Numbered from the stretch's first letter, positions 1,005-8,092 are shown. The stretch: DNA of 54,173 nt from Myxococcota bacterium (GCA_023150845.1 JAKLKD010000014.1:1-54173); one strand, 5' to 3'. Notes: generated by a model from the letters alone, not told the origin. Translations and numbers: made by a program.

Positions 1005-2540
1005 TCACCAACCTCGACCCCCGTCGCCTTGGGCGAAGGCCCCGCCCCGGACCAAGGTGGCGACGGCGGCGAGGTCTCGGTGCAGCACACGGTCGTCGAT
1101 CCAGCGCGGGGCGACCGCCCGCACCGTGGCCAGGGCCGCGCCGACCGCCGGGGCCAAGGCCACCTTCGGGCCTTGCACCGGGGTGCCGTCGGCCTGGAAG
1201 CTGCGGCCCTCCCGGCGGAACTCCAGGCCCTGGGCGGCGACGAGGGCCTCAATGGCCAAGACCGACGCGGCGTCTTCAGTGATGTGCAGGAGGCCGCGGG
1301 CGGCGTTGGGGCCCATCGGGACGTGATCCTCGGCGTGTTGGCCCGTGGGGATCGAGTCCGCCGAGGCGGGGAAGCAGCGCCCCTTACACTCGCTCACCAA
1401 AGAAGCCGCGGTGTACTGGGCGAGCATGAAGCCGTTGTTCACGCCGCTCCCTTCGAGCAAGAAGCTCGGCAGGTTGCCCGTGAGGCGCCCGTAGGTGAGC
1501 CGGTACACCCGGCGCTCGGCGATGGAGATCACCTGGGTCAACGCGACCTTGAGGTGGTCGAGGGTGAGGGCCACCGGGGCGCCGTGGAAGTTCCCAGCCT
1601 CCACCGCGCCGTCCTCAAAGACCAGCGGGTTGTCGCAGGCGCCGTTGAGCTCCCGGGTGATCACCCGCTCGGTGTACTCCAAGGCGTCCCAGGCCGCGCC
1701 GTGGACCGCCGGGGCGCAGCGCACGGAGAAGGCGTCGGGCGAGCGCCCCGCCTGCACCAAGGCCGAGCCCTCCAGGGACGCCGCCACCCGCGCCGCGCTC
1801 TCGACGGCGGAGGGGTGCCCGCGGGAGGCCAAGGCCCGGGGGTCGAGGCAGCCCGCGTCGGCGAGCACGACCTCCATGCTCATCGAGAGGGTGCGCTCCG
1901 CGGTGCGTAAGAGGCGCCGCGCGCGGTGGGCCGCGAGGGCGCCCATCGCCGCGGTGAGCGTCGCGCCGTTGATGAGGCTGAGGGCCTCCTTGGGCTCCGG
2001 CGTGAAGCTCGGCAGGCCCTCCATCGCCTCGGCGTAGCCCCGCACGACGCCGCCGCGCTCGGCCTTGCCGCCCAGGCGAAACGCCACTTCAGCGAGATGC
2101 GCCAAAGGCGCGAGATCCCCGGCGGCCCCGACGCTGCCGAGGCTCGGGATCACCGGGTGAACCCCGGCGTTGAGCATCTCCAGGAGCAGGTCGATGAGCT
2201 CCGGGCGAACCCCGGAGAGCCCCTGGCTGAGCTGGGAGGCCCGGGTCAACATCAAGGCGCGCACGAGCGCCGTGGCCAAGGGTGGGCCGACCCCGGCGCA
2301 GTGGCAGCGCACGAAGGTGCTCACCCGCTGGGCCTGGGGGGCGCCGACGCCCTCAATGCCGAGGAGCCAGGTCTCTTTGCGGGCGAGGATGTCCGGCGGG
2401 CCGAGCCCCAGCCAGACCTCGTGGTTTCGGGCGACGCGCGCCCGGGCCTCCTCGCCGAGGCGCACCCGCGCGCCGTCCACGACGGCGACGAGGTCGTCTA
2501 CGGTGAGCGGGCCCTCGCCCAGGACGATCTCGGCCTTCAT
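1005..2540 (-). CDS. HAL/PAL-family lyase paralogue lacking the MIO serine (probable pseudoenzyme)
   Basis: The 511-residue protein has the aromatic amino-acid ammonia-lyase fold along its whole length: GSVGAAGDLAPLAHL around 135-149, NGATLT near 191, SVRC at 272-275, the DNPLVF/NFHG block and DSIPT...EDHVPMG. The tripeptide that cyclises to the MIO cofactor is normally Ala-Ser-Gly; here it is Ala139-Ala140-Gly141, with Ala140 encoded at 2121-2123. The catalytic-loop motif YGVNTGFG is reduced to LGIEGVG with Leu60 in place of Tyr, and the later active-site Tyr is Phe271; Arg274 is kept. Without the serine no MIO can form by the known route. The ATG overlaps the stop of the intact lyase gene (ATGA, 2537-2540), so the two are probably translated together and may form a mixed tetramer. 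Confidence 0.85.
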   Translation of the reverse strand: MKAEIVLGEGPLTVDDLVAVVDGARVRLGEEARARVARNHEVWLGLGPPDILARKETWLLGIEGVGAPQAQRVSTFVRCHCAGVGPPLATALVRALMLTRASQLSQGLSGVRPELIDLLLEMLNAGVHPVIPSLGSVGAAGDLAPLAHLAEVAFRLGGKAERGGVVRGYAEAMEGLPSFTPEPKEALSLINGATLTAAMGALAAHRARRLLRTAERTLSMSMEVVLADAGCLDPRALASRGHPSAVESAARVAASLEGSALVQAGRSPDAFSVRCAPAVHGAAWDALEYTERVITRELNGACDNPLVFEDGAVEAGNFHGAPVALTLDHLKVALTQVISIAERRVYRLTYGRLTGNLPSFLLEGSGVNNGFMLAQYTAASLVSECKGRCFPASADSIPTGQHAEDHVPMGPNAARGLLHITEDAASVLAIEALVAAQGLEFRREGRSFQADGTPVQGPKVALAPAVGAALATVRAVAPRWIDDRVLHRDLAAVATLVRGGAFAQGDGGRGW

Positions 2541-4162
2541 TCGGTCCTCCCTTGGGGCCAGCCCGACACCCCAGCGGCGGCGGCGGCGGCGCGCACGGGG
2601 TCAGGCCCGCCGCGCCAGAGCGCCTCATGCACCGCGGCCACCTGCTCCGCGGGGGTGGCGTCCTCGGTGAGGTGGGCCAAGGCGCGCTCGACGAGGGCCC
2701 GGGCGGCGCCGGTCCCCGCGCCGAGCTGCAGCGTCGGCTCCCCCCGCAGGCGCAGGCTCAGGGCCCGGGCGCCGCAGAGCAGCTCCACGCTGATCACCCA
2801 CTGCGTGTTGCGCAGCACGTCCGAGGCCCGCCGCGCGGCGGTGGTGGACATCGCGACGTGGTCCTCTTGGTCCTCGCAGGTGGGGATCGAGTCCACCGAG
2901 GCCGGCCAGGCCAGCGCCTTGTTCTCCGAGACCAAGGCCGCCGCCGTCGTCTGCAGCGCCAGGAGCCCGAGCCCCGAGCGCGCCTCGCGCAGGCTCGACG
3001 GGAGGTGGTCGGAGAGCGCGGCGGTGAGCAGGCGGTAGAGGCGCCGCTCGCTCAAGCTCGCGACCTCGGCGAGGGCGATCTTGAGGAAGTCCGCGGCCAT
3101 GCCGACGGGCTCGCCGTGGAAGAGCCCCGCGGAGAAGGCCTTGTCGTCGCCCTCGGCGTCGAGGAGGATGAGCGGGTTGTCCGTCGCCGCGTTCAGCTCG
3201 ACCTCCACCTGCCCCCGCACAAAACGCGCCGCGTCCCGGGCCGCGCCGAGCACCGCCGGGGTGCAGCGTAAGGAGTAGGCGTCCTGCACCTTGCCCGGCA
3301 CGGCGTCCATGAGCGCCGAGCCGTCGAGCAAAGCCAAGAGGTTCGCCGCCGTCGTCTGGGCGCCGGGGTACGGCCGCTGGGCGTGCACGAGGGGCAAGAA
3401 CGCCCGCCGCACCCCGCGGAGGGCCTCGATGGACATGGCCGCGGCGAGCTCGGCGGCGGCGAGCAGGCGCTCGGCGTCGTAGATGGCCAGGGCCGTGATC
3501 GCCGTGGTGAGCTGGGCGCCGTTGGTGAGCGCGAGGCCCTCCTTCGGGCCCAAGGCCAGAGGCGCGAGCCCGGCGCGGCGCAGAGCCTCCCGGCCGCTGA
3601 GGCGCTCGCCCTCAAAGAAGGCCTCGCCGGTCTCCGCCTCGGGGTCGGCGGGGTCGTGGGCGATGAGCAGGCCGAGGTGAGACAAAGGCGCGAGATCCCC
3701 GGAGGATCCGCAGCTTCCTTGGGTGGGCAGGACCGGCGTGACCCCCCGGTTGAGGAGCGCGAGGAGCAGCTCCACGAGCTCCGGGCGGCAGCCCGAGACC
3801 CCCCGGGCCAAGGCGTTCGCCCGCAGGAGCACCGTCGCCCGGGCGACGTCCTCGGCGGCGGGCTCACCCACCCCGGCGGCGTGGGAGCGCAGGAGGTTCC
3901 GCGACAGGGTGTTGAGGGACTCGGCGGGGATCCGCACCCGCGCCAAGGATCCGTAGCCGGTGTTCACCCCGTAGATCGCGCGGCTCTCACCCCGCGCGTC
4001 GACGAGCTCACCTCGCACGACAGACTCGACCCAGGCGCGGCTGCGCGACATCTCCGCCCGCGCGGCCTCCCCCAAGGCGACCGGGCGGCGAGCACGGGCG
4101 ACCTCAACCAGCTCTTCTAGGTGGAGGCTCGCGCCTCGCAGCACGACAGGGCTCTCTCTCAT
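2537..4162 (-). CDS. aromatic amino-acid ammonia-lyase (HAL/TAL/PAL family)
   Basis: The 541-residue enzyme has all hallmarks of the MIO lyases, which remove ammonia from His, Tyr or Phe. Tyr64 lies in IYGVNTGYG, the MIO tripeptide is Ser153-Ser154-Gly155 in GSCGSSGDLAPLSH (Ser replaces the usual Ala at the first position, which other family members tolerate), YSLRC carries the Tyr/Arg pair, and DNPLIL, LFHGEPVG and QEDHVAM follow. The substrate-pocket motif is Ser93-His94 (RSHAAGVGEP); His there is usual in histidine and tyrosine lyases and argues against a plain Phe lyase. No hutU, hutI or hutG lies beside it, so His catabolism is not supported by context. With the synthase downstream, supply of an aryl-acrylate starter is one possibility. 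Confidence 0.88.
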   Translation of the reverse strand: MRESPVVLRGASLHLEELVEVARARRPVALGEAARAEMSRSRAWVESVVRGELVDARGESRAIYGVNTGYGSLARVRIPAESLNTLSRNLLRSHAAGVGEPAAEDVARATVLLRANALARGVSGCRPELVELLLALLNRGVTPVLPTQGSCGSSGDLAPLSHLGLLIAHDPADPEAETGEAFFEGERLSGREALRRAGLAPLALGPKEGLALTNGAQLTTAITALAIYDAERLLAAAELAAAMSIEALRGVRRAFLPLVHAQRPYPGAQTTAANLLALLDGSALMDAVPGKVQDAYSLRCTPAVLGAARDAARFVRGQVEVELNAATDNPLILLDAEGDDKAFSAGLFHGEPVGMAADFLKIALAEVASLSERRLYRLLTAALSDHLPSSLREARSGLGLLALQTTAAALVSENKALAWPASVDSIPTCEDQEDHVAMSTTAARRASDVLRNTQWVISVELLCGARALSLRLRGEPTLQLGAGTGAARALVERALAHLTEDATPAEQVAAVHEALWRGGPDPVRAAAAAAGVSGWPQGRTE

Positions 4163-5206: not shown

Positions 5207-8092
5207 TCAGTACGTCGTGCACGGGGACGGAACGTAGACGGTGCCGTTCTTCTCGGCCTCCTCGACGTGCTCGTTGATCTTGTCCTCTTCCAGGACGGAG
5301 TAGGCCCAGCGGTCCTTCCGGATGGCCTCGACCTCAAACGTGCCCTTGAGCACGGCGAAGGACAAGGAGTCGCGACCCTGGAGGAAGATCTGGTAGTCGC
5401 CCTTCACCGAGGTGCCGACCTCAAAGGTCGGAGAGCCCTCGAAGCGCACGAAGGAGTAGTGGGTCTCGACGAAGTTATCGAGGCCCGCCTCAGACTCGTC
5501 GATCGGGCGCCAGGCGTTGTCCTCGACCTTGATCGTGAAGTCGGTCGGGTTCATGGCGCCGTAGGTGCCGAGCTCGGCCTCCCAGATGCGCGCGTAGCTG
5601 TTGATCTCCTCCGCGCCCTCGGCGTAAGCGTCGGGGTCGGGGTTCAGCGCGTCGGCGTCCAGGAAGTGGAAGTCGTTCGGGACGACGATGAGCTCGTCAT
5701 CGGCGAACTTCGCGTGGGCGAAGCCCGCGAGCCACTCCTGCGGCAAGCTCCAGAACACCTCGGCGTCGGAGGGGTTGATCTGCGCCGCGCCGGCGTTGAG
5801 GTAGTAGATCGTCTTGCCGTCCTCGTCCTTCGACCACTCCTCAAGGGTGTTGCCGTAGTTGAGGTTGAAGGGCATCGGATCGCCAGGATCTTCGGTGGCC
5901 TCGATGGTGTCGAAGGCGTGGTTGCAGTCGTCATCGAGGCGGTCGGCGTCGCCGTCGCTGTCGTTGTCGAGGCCGTCGCTGCACTGGGTCAGGCCCGCCG
6001 CGCCGCCGCCCTCGCTCGGGCCGCCGTTCACGCAGGTCGGGTCGCCGAGGTCCTTGTCGTTGTCGCCGCGGTCGATCCAGCCGTCGCCGTCGTTGTCGAT
6101 GCCGTCACCGCACTCGTCGAGCTCCTCGAAGCGGCTGTTCGCGATGGCGCAGTCGCCGTCGTCAGCGTCCACGTCGCCGTCACCGTCGTTGTCTACGCCG
6201 TCGTTGCAGGCGCTGGAGGTGAAGCCGACCTCGTACTCAGACTCCGAGCAGTCGGGGTCGGCGTTGTCCGCCCAGCCGTCGCCGTCGTCGTCGAGCTTGT
6301 TGCTGCAGGCGCCGATGGGGCCCTCGACGAGGGTGGCCGAGGTGACGCAGTCGATGTCCAGGGCGTCGGAGAAGCCGTCGCCGTCGTTGTCGATGCCGTC
6401 GCCGCACTCCATCGCCGAGTCGTCGGCCTCAGCGCCGCCCATCCAGCAGCCGTAGTCCGCGCCGTAGACGACGTCCTCGCCGGACTCCTCCACCGTGGCG
6501 CCGACGCCGTCGATGAAGCCGTCGCCGTCGTTGTCGATGCCGTCGGAGCAGTCGGCGTCGGCGGAGTCGTCCTCGGTGGCGCGCTGGGGCGCGACGCAGC
6601 CGAGATCCTCGGCGTCGATCAGGCCGTCCTCGTCGTCATCGACGCCGTTGTTGCAGATGTAGCCGGTGAAGCCGACCTCAGCGTTGCCGACGAGGCAGTC
6701 GGGGTCAGTGTCGTTGCCCCAACCGTCGAGATCGTCGTCGTCGCCAGCGCCGTCGCGGCAAGACGAGCCCGAGGTGCTGTTCTCGTTGTTGTCGAAGGCG
6801 CTCGTGCAGTGGCTGTCGTCGACGTCGATGTCGCCGTCGCCGCTGTCCTCGTTGTCTTCGCCGTCGTTGCAGGCGTAGAGGCCGAAGAAGGAGCCGTCCT
6901 CCTCCTCGCCGAGCACACAGTCGGGGTCGTCGAGGTCGACGTAGCCGTCGCTGTCGTTGTCGCTCTCGTCGGAGCAGGAGAGGCCGAGGTCGGTCTCCGC
7001 GCCGTCCATGGCGTCGACGCAGCCCGCGTCCGTGGCGTCGGTCAGGCCGTCGCCGTCGTTGTCGAGGCCGTCGCCGCAGGGGGCGCCGCTGAGGCCCGCC
7101 TCGGCCTCGCCGGTGAGGCAGTCGCTGTCGAGGCTGTCCACCCAGCCGTCGCCGTCGTTGTCGAGCTCGTCGGCGCAGGAGTCGCCGCTGAGGGCGCCGT
7201 CCTCGGCGTTGTCCCAGACGCTCTCGCAGCCCGCGTCGTCGAGGTCCTCGTCGCCGTCGCCGTCGTTGTCGACGCCATCGGCGCAGGCGTAGAGGCCGTT
7301 GGAGTCGCCCGTCTCTTCAGCGACGCCCCAGCCGATGGAGCAGTCCGGGTCCGCGTCGTCACGGAGGCCGTCGCCGTCGTTGTCCTGGTTGTCGTTGCAG
7401 GTCGAGGCGGCGGCCTCGGTCGCGTAGGCCGAGGTGCAGTCGGCGTCGGTGGCGTCCACGTCGCCGTCGTTGTCGTCGTCGAGGCCGTTGTTGCAGGAGC
7501 GGTGGGTGAAGCCGACCTCCCAGGCGTCGCCGAGGCAGTCGGGGTCGTTGTAGTCGGCCCAGCCGTCGCCGTCGTTGTCACCCTCGACATAGCAGGTCTG
7601 GCCGGACTCGATGCAGACCGTGGGCTGGTAGTCGGGGTCGATCACGAAGGCGAAGCGGAAGTCGTTGCCCGGCGCCACGTCGTCGAGGTCGTGGTGCACC
7701 GTGAGCTGGAAGTCGCTCTCCGAGGTGATGATCGCCTCAGAGCGCCAGGCGCTCACCTCACCCTGGTAGCCGTAGAAGATGTCGTCGCCGAGGCGCGAGA
7801 ACTGGGAGAACACCGGGCGGCTGGCGCCCGCGGCGCCCGAGCCGTCGTAGAAGTAGGGCTCGTCGAAGCGGTCATCGACGGGGTTCGGCGTGCCGAAGTT
7901 GCAGACGCTGCCCTCTTCTAAGGTCTCGGAGACGCAGTCCAGCGTGAAGCTCGCCTTGTCGAGATCCATCGAGCCGGTCGCGACCGCGGCGGACGAGCCC
8001 TTGGCGAGCCAGGCGTGAAAGGTGCCGCCGACGACCGCGTCGTTCGGGGTGCATCCGGCGAGCATCAGGACAACGAGCAGGGACATCAGCAC
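5207..8092 (-). CDS. large surface lipoprotein with 16 Cys-flanked DNDGDG repeats
   Basis: The 961-residue protein begins with a lipoprotein signal (MLMSLLVVLMLAGC), so it should be lipid-anchored in the envelope. After about 150 residues of non-repeat sequence come some 16 units of the pattern C-x-D-x-x-D-N-D-G-D-G-x-x-D-x-x-D-x-D-C, roughly 35-45 residues apart, like thrombospondin type 3 calcium loops and the MopE metal-binding motif. About 230 residues of mixed beta sequence follow, ending in PCTTY. The even Cys spacing suggests a disulfide in each unit. Calcium binding is inferred from the DxDxDG pattern. GAGG lies eight bases before the chosen ATG, and a sigma-70-like promoter lies just upstream. 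The repeats create long misleading open frames on the other strand. Confidence 0.85.
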   Translation of the reverse strand: MLMSLLVVLMLAGCTPNDAVVGGTFHAWLAKGSSAAVATGSMDLDKASFTLDCVSETLEEGSVCNFGTPNPVDDRFDEPYFYDGSGAAGASRPVFSQFSRLGDDIFYGYQGEVSAWRSEAIITSESDFQLTVHHDLDDVAPGNDFRFAFVIDPDYQPTVCIESGQTCYVEGDNDGDGWADYNDPDCLGDAWEVGFTHRSCNNGLDDDNDGDVDATDADCTSAYATEAAASTCNDNQDNDGDGLRDDADPDCSIGWGVAEETGDSNGLYACADGVDNDGDGDEDLDDAGCESVWDNAEDGALSGDSCADELDNDGDGWVDSLDSDCLTGEAEAGLSGAPCGDGLDNDGDGLTDATDAGCVDAMDGAETDLGLSCSDESDNDSDGYVDLDDPDCVLGEEEDGSFFGLYACNDGEDNEDSGDGDIDVDDSHCTSAFDNNENSTSGSSCRDGAGDDDDLDGWGNDTDPDCLVGNAEVGFTGYICNNGVDDDEDGLIDAEDLGCVAPQRATEDDSADADCSDGIDNDGDGFIDGVGATVEESGEDVVYGADYGCWMGGAEADDSAMECGDGIDNDGDGFSDALDIDCVTSATLVEGPIGACSNKLDDDGDGWADNADPDCSESEYEVGFTSSACNDGVDNDGDGDVDADDGDCAIANSRFEELDECGDGIDNDGDGWIDRGDNDKDLGDPTCVNGGPSEGGGAAGLTQCSDGLDNDSDGDADRLDDDCNHAFDTIEATEDPGDPMPFNLNYGNTLEEWSKDEDGKTIYYLNAGAAQINPSDAEVFWSLPQEWLAGFAHAKFADDELIVVPNDFHFLDADALNPDPDAYAEGAEEINSYARIWEAELGTYGAMNPTDFTIKVEDNAWRPIDESEAGLDNFVETHYSFVRFEGSPTFEVGTSVKGDYQIFLQGRDSLSFAVLKGTFEVEAIRKDRWAYSVLEEDKINEHVEEAEKNGTVYVPSPCTTY

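Follow-up and report, generated by a model that had tools for sequence, protein, structure and literature searches.

Two adjacent ammonia-lyase genes, U and D, in a 54,173-nucleotide stretch of DNA from a Myxococcota bacterium (JAKLKD010000014.1, assembly GCA_023150845.1; this whole stretch is hereafter the window) are predicted to encode a histidine ammonia-lyase (HAL) that is an obligate heteromer of their two products, with a composition fitting U2D2, and would feed the hut pathway of histidine degradation. We put the probability of this reading at roughly 0.6. Both genes are full-length open reading frames on the minus strand and they share the four bases ATGA. The features on which the argument depends are the following:

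2537..4162, minus strand: U, putative catalytic ammonia-lyase subunit, 541 aa, with tripeptide Ser-Ser-Gly (AlphaFold2 pLDDT 90.0, pTM 0.92)
1005..2540, minus strand: D, MIO-less ammonia-lyase paralogue, 511 aa, with tripeptide Ala-Ala-Gly (AlphaFold2 pLDDT 90.2, pTM 0.92)
2537..2540, minus strand: ATGA, shared by the stop of U and the start of D; most linked relatives show an overlap or near-overlap
3698..3706, minus strand: MIO tripeptide of U, Ser153-Ser154-Gly155
2118..2126, minus strand: degenerate tripeptide of D, Ala139-Ala140-Gly141, with the Ala140 codon at 2121-2123
3971..3973, minus strand: U Tyr64, equivalent to the loop tyrosine Tyr53 of HAL, retained in 47/47 U
3275..3277, minus strand: U Tyr296, equivalent to HAL Tyr280, retained in 47/47 U
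2361..2363, minus strand: D Leu60, which replaces HAL Tyr53 in a shortened loop
1728..1739, minus strand: D Pro268-x-x-Phe271, which replaces HAL Gln277-x-x-Tyr280
1413..1445, minus strand: D C-part motif G-V-N-N-G-F-M-L-A-Q-Y (GVNSGFMIAQV in HAL), present in D and absent in U
1323..1340, minus strand: D Gln401-His-Ala-Glu404-Asp-His406, the HAL Glu414 region
2948..2980, minus strand: U degenerate C-part R-S-G-L-G-L-L-A-L-Q-T, at the site of the missing GxNSGFM motif

Matches to PF00221 extend over nearly the whole length of both proteins (536 bits for U; 424 bits for D, covering positions 1-449 of 466), and AlphaFold2 predicted for each, as a single chain, a confident full lyase fold (pLDDT 90, pTM 0.92). 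The best Foldseek matches of the predicted D structure are histidine ammonia-lyases. U and D are the sole PF00221 genes in the source genome (7.1 Mb, 444 contigs). Elsewhere in the window, a 961-aa open reading frame at 5207-8092 (minus strand) consists mostly of DNDGDG-type acidic repeats.

For all comparisons, residues are numbered as in P. putida HAL. A first-pass annotation of this DNA had described D as a full-length lyase fold in which the MIO tripeptide is Ala-Ala-Gly, the loop tyrosine is Leu and a second active-site tyrosine is Phe, in a gene overlapping its upstream neighbour by ATGA. All of this was confirmed: the Ala140 codon reads GGC on the plus strand and GCC on the coding strand, Leu60 stands at the Tyr53 site in a loop about 10 residues shorter, and Phe271 replaces Tyr280, together with Pro268 for Gln277. 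The equivalents of His83, Asn195, Arg283, Phe329 and Glu414 are retained in D, where the pocket residues are His80, Asn191, Arg274, Phe318 and Glu404. D has the lyase fold without the defining MIO serine and is not classed here as an ammonia-lyase. The description of the upstream gene as intact held for the catalytic residues, all of which are present, but not for several conserved C-terminal positions, which are lost. U has what defines a HAL catalytically but not the C-terminal motif, and at 499 bits it falls below the curated NCBIfam hutH equivalog cut-off of 539, while passing that of the broader PRK09367 subfamily (533 bits for a cut-off of 524).

The coupling of an active and a MIO-less gene proposed in the first-pass annotation is real. 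A search for co-occurring Ser and non-Ser pairs found D homologues in 44 of 58 genomes from one order of Myxococcota (source genome counted), each of which also has a U homologue; U is present in 49 of 63 order genomes, and the sole U without a D reaches the end of its contig. Relatives whose D keeps Ser, which would have spoken for a recent mutation or sequencing error, were looked for and are absent: among full-length D homologues, position 143 (the MIO Ser) is Ala and position 280 is Phe in 47/47, and neither the loop Tyr53 nor Tyr280 occurs in any (0/47 for each). These counts come from a combined alignment that includes the D and U sequences of four genomes added after the first survey. 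Asp145 of the MIO loop is also gone in 12/47 D; the equivalents of His83, Asn195, Arg283 and Glu414 are found in 47/47 and that of Phe329 in 44/47. In U, the Ser-Ser-Gly tripeptide is kept in 47/47 sequences, as are Tyr53, His83, Asn195, Gln277, Tyr280, Arg283, Phe329 and Glu414.

A heteromeric lyase is supported by the way in which the losses of the two proteins are distributed over 73 positions at which 33 canonical HALs are conserved. Nine of these positions are lost in D alone (Y53, T57, G58, G60, L154, G190, V276, Q277 and Y280) and eight in U alone (A142, N328, F370, G376, S379, S418, R469 and D478), and only A411 is lost in both. The change of A142 to Ser in U is probably harmless for MIO formation. 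Every one of the nine D losses precedes residue 340, and six of the eight in U follow it (Fisher p = 0.002; p = 0.0005 with a looser conservation cut and 0.06-0.2 with the strictest, 100%-invariant positions), a split that rests on 17 positions and on a dividing residue picked after the pattern was seen. The GxNSGFM motif of the C-terminal pocket and its neighbours are absent in U and present in D. Met occupies position 382 in every bacterial HAL described (PMC11432326); it is found there in 47/47 D but in only 19/47 U. Pairwise identity among D sequences is 0.73 in the C part but 0.54-0.56 N-terminally and in the middle. The canonical HAL consensus is matched better by D than by U in the C part (0.55 vs 0.49), the reverse being true of the N-terminal and middle parts. 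Two observations fit the split poorly, namely the loss of N328 in U, which falls in the middle segment, and the presence of Glu414 in U. As judged from the alignments, the losses are complementary: D lacks catalytic residues of the N-terminal and middle parts, and U lacks the C-terminal pocket motif.

In HAL and PAL structures, the MIO, the Tyr53 loop, His83 and Asn195 come from one subunit, Tyr280, Arg283 and Phe329 from a second, and the Met382 helix and Glu414 from a third. The assumption in the first-pass annotation that family enzymes are tetramers with multi-subunit active sites agrees with the literature, in which MIO enzymes have four sites, each combining residues of three interlocking subunits (PMC9002059, PMC11432326). 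Because the losses are complementary and MIO sites are built from three subunits, an obligate U2D2 heterotetramer fits the data. In such an enzyme, U would form the MIO and give the equivalents of the loop tyrosine, His83, Asn195, Gln277, Tyr280 and Arg283; D, lacking the MIO, the loop tyrosine, Gln277 and Tyr280, would give the C-terminal wall of the active site, that is GxNSGFM, Met382 and the Glu414 region. The tetramer would have two working sites, in which U and U' provide the catalytic parts and D the C-terminal part, alongside two dead sites; unless the first two roles fall to U and the third to D, each site would be missing a part. D could plausibly take a place in a tetramer, since AlphaFold2 gives it a confident full lyase fold whose best structural matches are HALs. 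We infer from the residue patterns that U and D associate physically, in this stoichiometry, and that U would be active only with D. The more specific proposal, that a three-subunit MIO site was split between the paralogues by reciprocal degeneration, so that neither U nor D would be complete alone and the sole productive form would take MIO and Tyr280 from two U and the C-terminal wall from D, is held more tentatively, at slightly less than even odds.

The first-pass annotation had suggested a pseudoenzyme that could tune or stabilise an active partner. The complementary losses support a pseudoenzyme within a heteromeric lyase, but this wording undersells D: because D keeps the C-terminal wall lost in U, it more likely supplies part of a working active site. 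A regulatory or stabilising partner, in a tetramer whose working sites form between U chains and in which histidine or urocanate acts as an effector bound in the residual pocket of D, would account for the conservation in D of His83, Asn195, Arg283, Glu414 and mostly Phe329 despite MIO loss, as expected of a ligand pocket without chemistry; it leaves unexplained why the C-terminal motif was lost from U and kept in D, and we regard it as unlikely. In the heteromeric enzyme proposed here, too, ligands could bind at the dead site of D, which retains His, Asn, Arg and Glu, and an effector role is possible.

The link of the pair to histidine degradation comes from genome content. The source genome encodes a urocanase (921 bits) and an imidazolonepropionase (362 bits), and no further histidase was found in it. 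Urocanase is present in 41 of the 44 pair genomes, the three without it being 72-81% complete, and hutI in most of the 44; no other PF00221-type lyase was found in pair genomes. Eleven order genomes without the pair have hutU, and 8/11 carry a different, single histidase-like gene: a canonical hutH adjoining hutU and hutI (G026), a histidase of Ala-Cys-Gly type (G005, G014 and G016), a related one of Ala-Ser-Gly type (G038), or a long divergent type (G002, G027 and G036). In G019, G023 and G049, which have hutU and hutI, neither the pair nor any ammonia-lyase was found, and the cause may lie in gaps of the assemblies or in a different route to urocanate. Three further genomes (G010, G041 and G043) have neither hutU nor the pair. 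With hutU and hutI present, no further histidase found, and a different one in most hutU genomes that lack the pair, the pair is most likely the histidine ammonia-lyase of the order, and this co-occurrence points to histidine as its substrate.

A heteromeric MIO enzyme acting on a substrate other than histidine would be suggested by position 411, which is invariantly Glu in U and invariantly Gln in D versus Ala in canonical HALs, by the hutH score of U (499 vs 539) and by the location of the pair, around which no hut operon was found. Such an enzyme is hard to reconcile with hutU and hutI in genomes that hold no other histidase, with the separate histidases of most pair-less hutU genomes, and with the retention in U of Glu414 and of the Ser-His motif (47/47), to which the recognition of histidine by HALs is attributed (PMC11432326). 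We consider another substrate improbable.

Some histidases of the phylum have Ala-Cys-Gly and not Ala-Ser-Gly, with a natural Cys at the MIO position (L088 3909-5432, minus strand; L090 4637-6169, plus strand; L097 5-1255, plus strand; and L138); three of these come from members of this order that lack the pair. The urocanases of G005, G014, G016, G027 and G038 score only 411-430 bits versus about 900 in other genomes; they represent a second type of urocanase, found mostly together with histidases of the Ala-Cys-Gly group.

The pair is old and always co-retained. In a tree computed without trait columns, all D sequences form one clade and all U sequences another (SH-aLRT 100 for each), and the sub-branches of both clades mostly track the same families. 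Distances among D and among U correlate at 0.93 over 41 genomes, a correlation that shared ancestry alone could yield. A Thermoflexales genome supplies the nearest outgroup of U, a HAL that stands alone, belongs to the canonical set and has the GxNSGFM motif intact. D is about 49-58% identical to its homologues and 93% identical within the genus. The D profile scores 570-830 bits inside the order and at most 458 bits elsewhere among 379 genomes of the phylum; a DNA motif for Gly-Ser-x-Gly-Ala-Ala-Gly-Asp-Leu-Ala-Pro was found in 36 of these 379, all in this order, and the reversed motif gave zero matches among the same genomes. The nearest named relative, and the only one of D in a scan of contigs with the single D sequence, is JAKLKE010000104.1, a Myxococcota MAG. 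Compared with a same-genus genome, D has dN 0.048 and dS 0.368 (dN/dS about 0.13, and about 0.07 for U) and, on these estimates, is under purifying selection.

The genes next to the pair vary by family (epimerase, methyltransferase, cytochrome, Band 7, FG-GAP and unknown), and across families this context pointed to no pathway. In one genus (G009, G013, G028, G050 and G056; L078-L087), U and D are on separate contigs, in several cases away from contig ends, and both are retained. In G051 (L071 397-6440), D and U do not show the usual overlap: they are on one strand, separated by about 2.9 kb.

D might instead form homomers of its own and have acquired a new function independent of MIO, as an enzyme or binding protein, being only co-transcribed with U. 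Its full lyase fold, the purifying selection and the unlinked genes of one genus are compatible with this, but D is never found without U, the genes usually overlap and their losses are complementary, and we give a separate D little credence. Reading D as a pseudogene, as recently mutated or as the product of a sequencing error has nothing in its favour beyond a MAG-like, fragmented assembly (as were most of the genomes surveyed) and is already refuted by Ala in 47/47 order-wide homologues, intact frames and a dN/dS of about 0.13, which leave it a negligible probability; a recent mutation inside the order is likewise excluded, D being one old clade. An ordinary HAL variant spread beyond the order was also rejected, as the D profile scores at most 458 bits elsewhere in the phylum and 481 bits among 350 Chloroflexota, whose two best matches encode Ala-Ser-Gly, vs 570-830 bits for D. 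A search of 398 Pseudomonadota, run without a positive control, gave no match below 1e-130.

HutH (PF00221, TIGR01225; P. putida HAL 1b8f, T. acidophilum 7tqr) has the same fold as the pair; U has every HAL catalytic residue, the predicted structure of D best matches HALs, and pair genomes hold the downstream hut enzymes. Known HALs, however, are homotetramers with four identical sites (PMC11432326), whereas here two diverged paralogues with complementary losses always occur together and one of them is unable to form MIO. The working principle proposed for U and D resembles that of the trypanosomatid deoxyhypusine synthase DHSc/DHSp, in which a catalytically dead paralogue joins an impaired one in a heterotetramer; two of its sites are live and two dead, and activity increases 3000-fold (PMC3663545, PMC7581365). 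Here too a conserved paralogue without catalytic residues is always found alongside an active one; DHS, however, belongs to an unrelated, eukaryotic family, and the complex and activation shown there are proposed for U and D from sequence. Pseudomonas HutH1/HutH2 (P. fluorescens hut region) are also two histidase-family genes in one genome but not an overlapping pair, and we know of no report of a mixed HutH1/HutH2 complex. Plant PAL isoenzymes form heterotetramers which, like the proposed U-D enzyme, mix MIO-enzyme paralogues, although all their subunits are active and carry MIO.

The first-pass annotation knew of no heteromeric lyase of this kind, and no description of a MIO-less partner, a heteromeric MIO enzyme or a heteromeric histidase was found in the literature searched, the scope of which excluded most subscription papers. 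To our knowledge, no other MIO enzyme is an obligate heteromer, and U-D would be the first. MIO ammonia-lyases (HAL, PAL and TAL) are textbook homotetramers and heavily engineered, and PAL is used for phenylketonuria. If our reading is true, the pair would be a clear natural example of complementary loss within one shared active site, would show how such a site is divisible between paralogues, one without the cofactor and the other without the substrate wall, and could allow the catalytic and substrate-facing parts to be varied independently. It would also be a directly testable case of an obligate heteromer evolving from a homomer, and D-type genes annotated as histidine ammonia-lyase are probably not lyases by themselves.

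Two further PF00221 proteins, from Mesorhizobium (L040 6738-9227, plus strand) and Thermoleophilia (L041 7617-9305, plus strand), have a MIO loop one residue shorter (GSIGAGDL and GSIGSGDL, respectively) and Leu at the Tyr280 position. The tripeptide of the Mesorhizobium protein contains no Ser, and proteins of this type may represent a second, unrelated MIO-less group.
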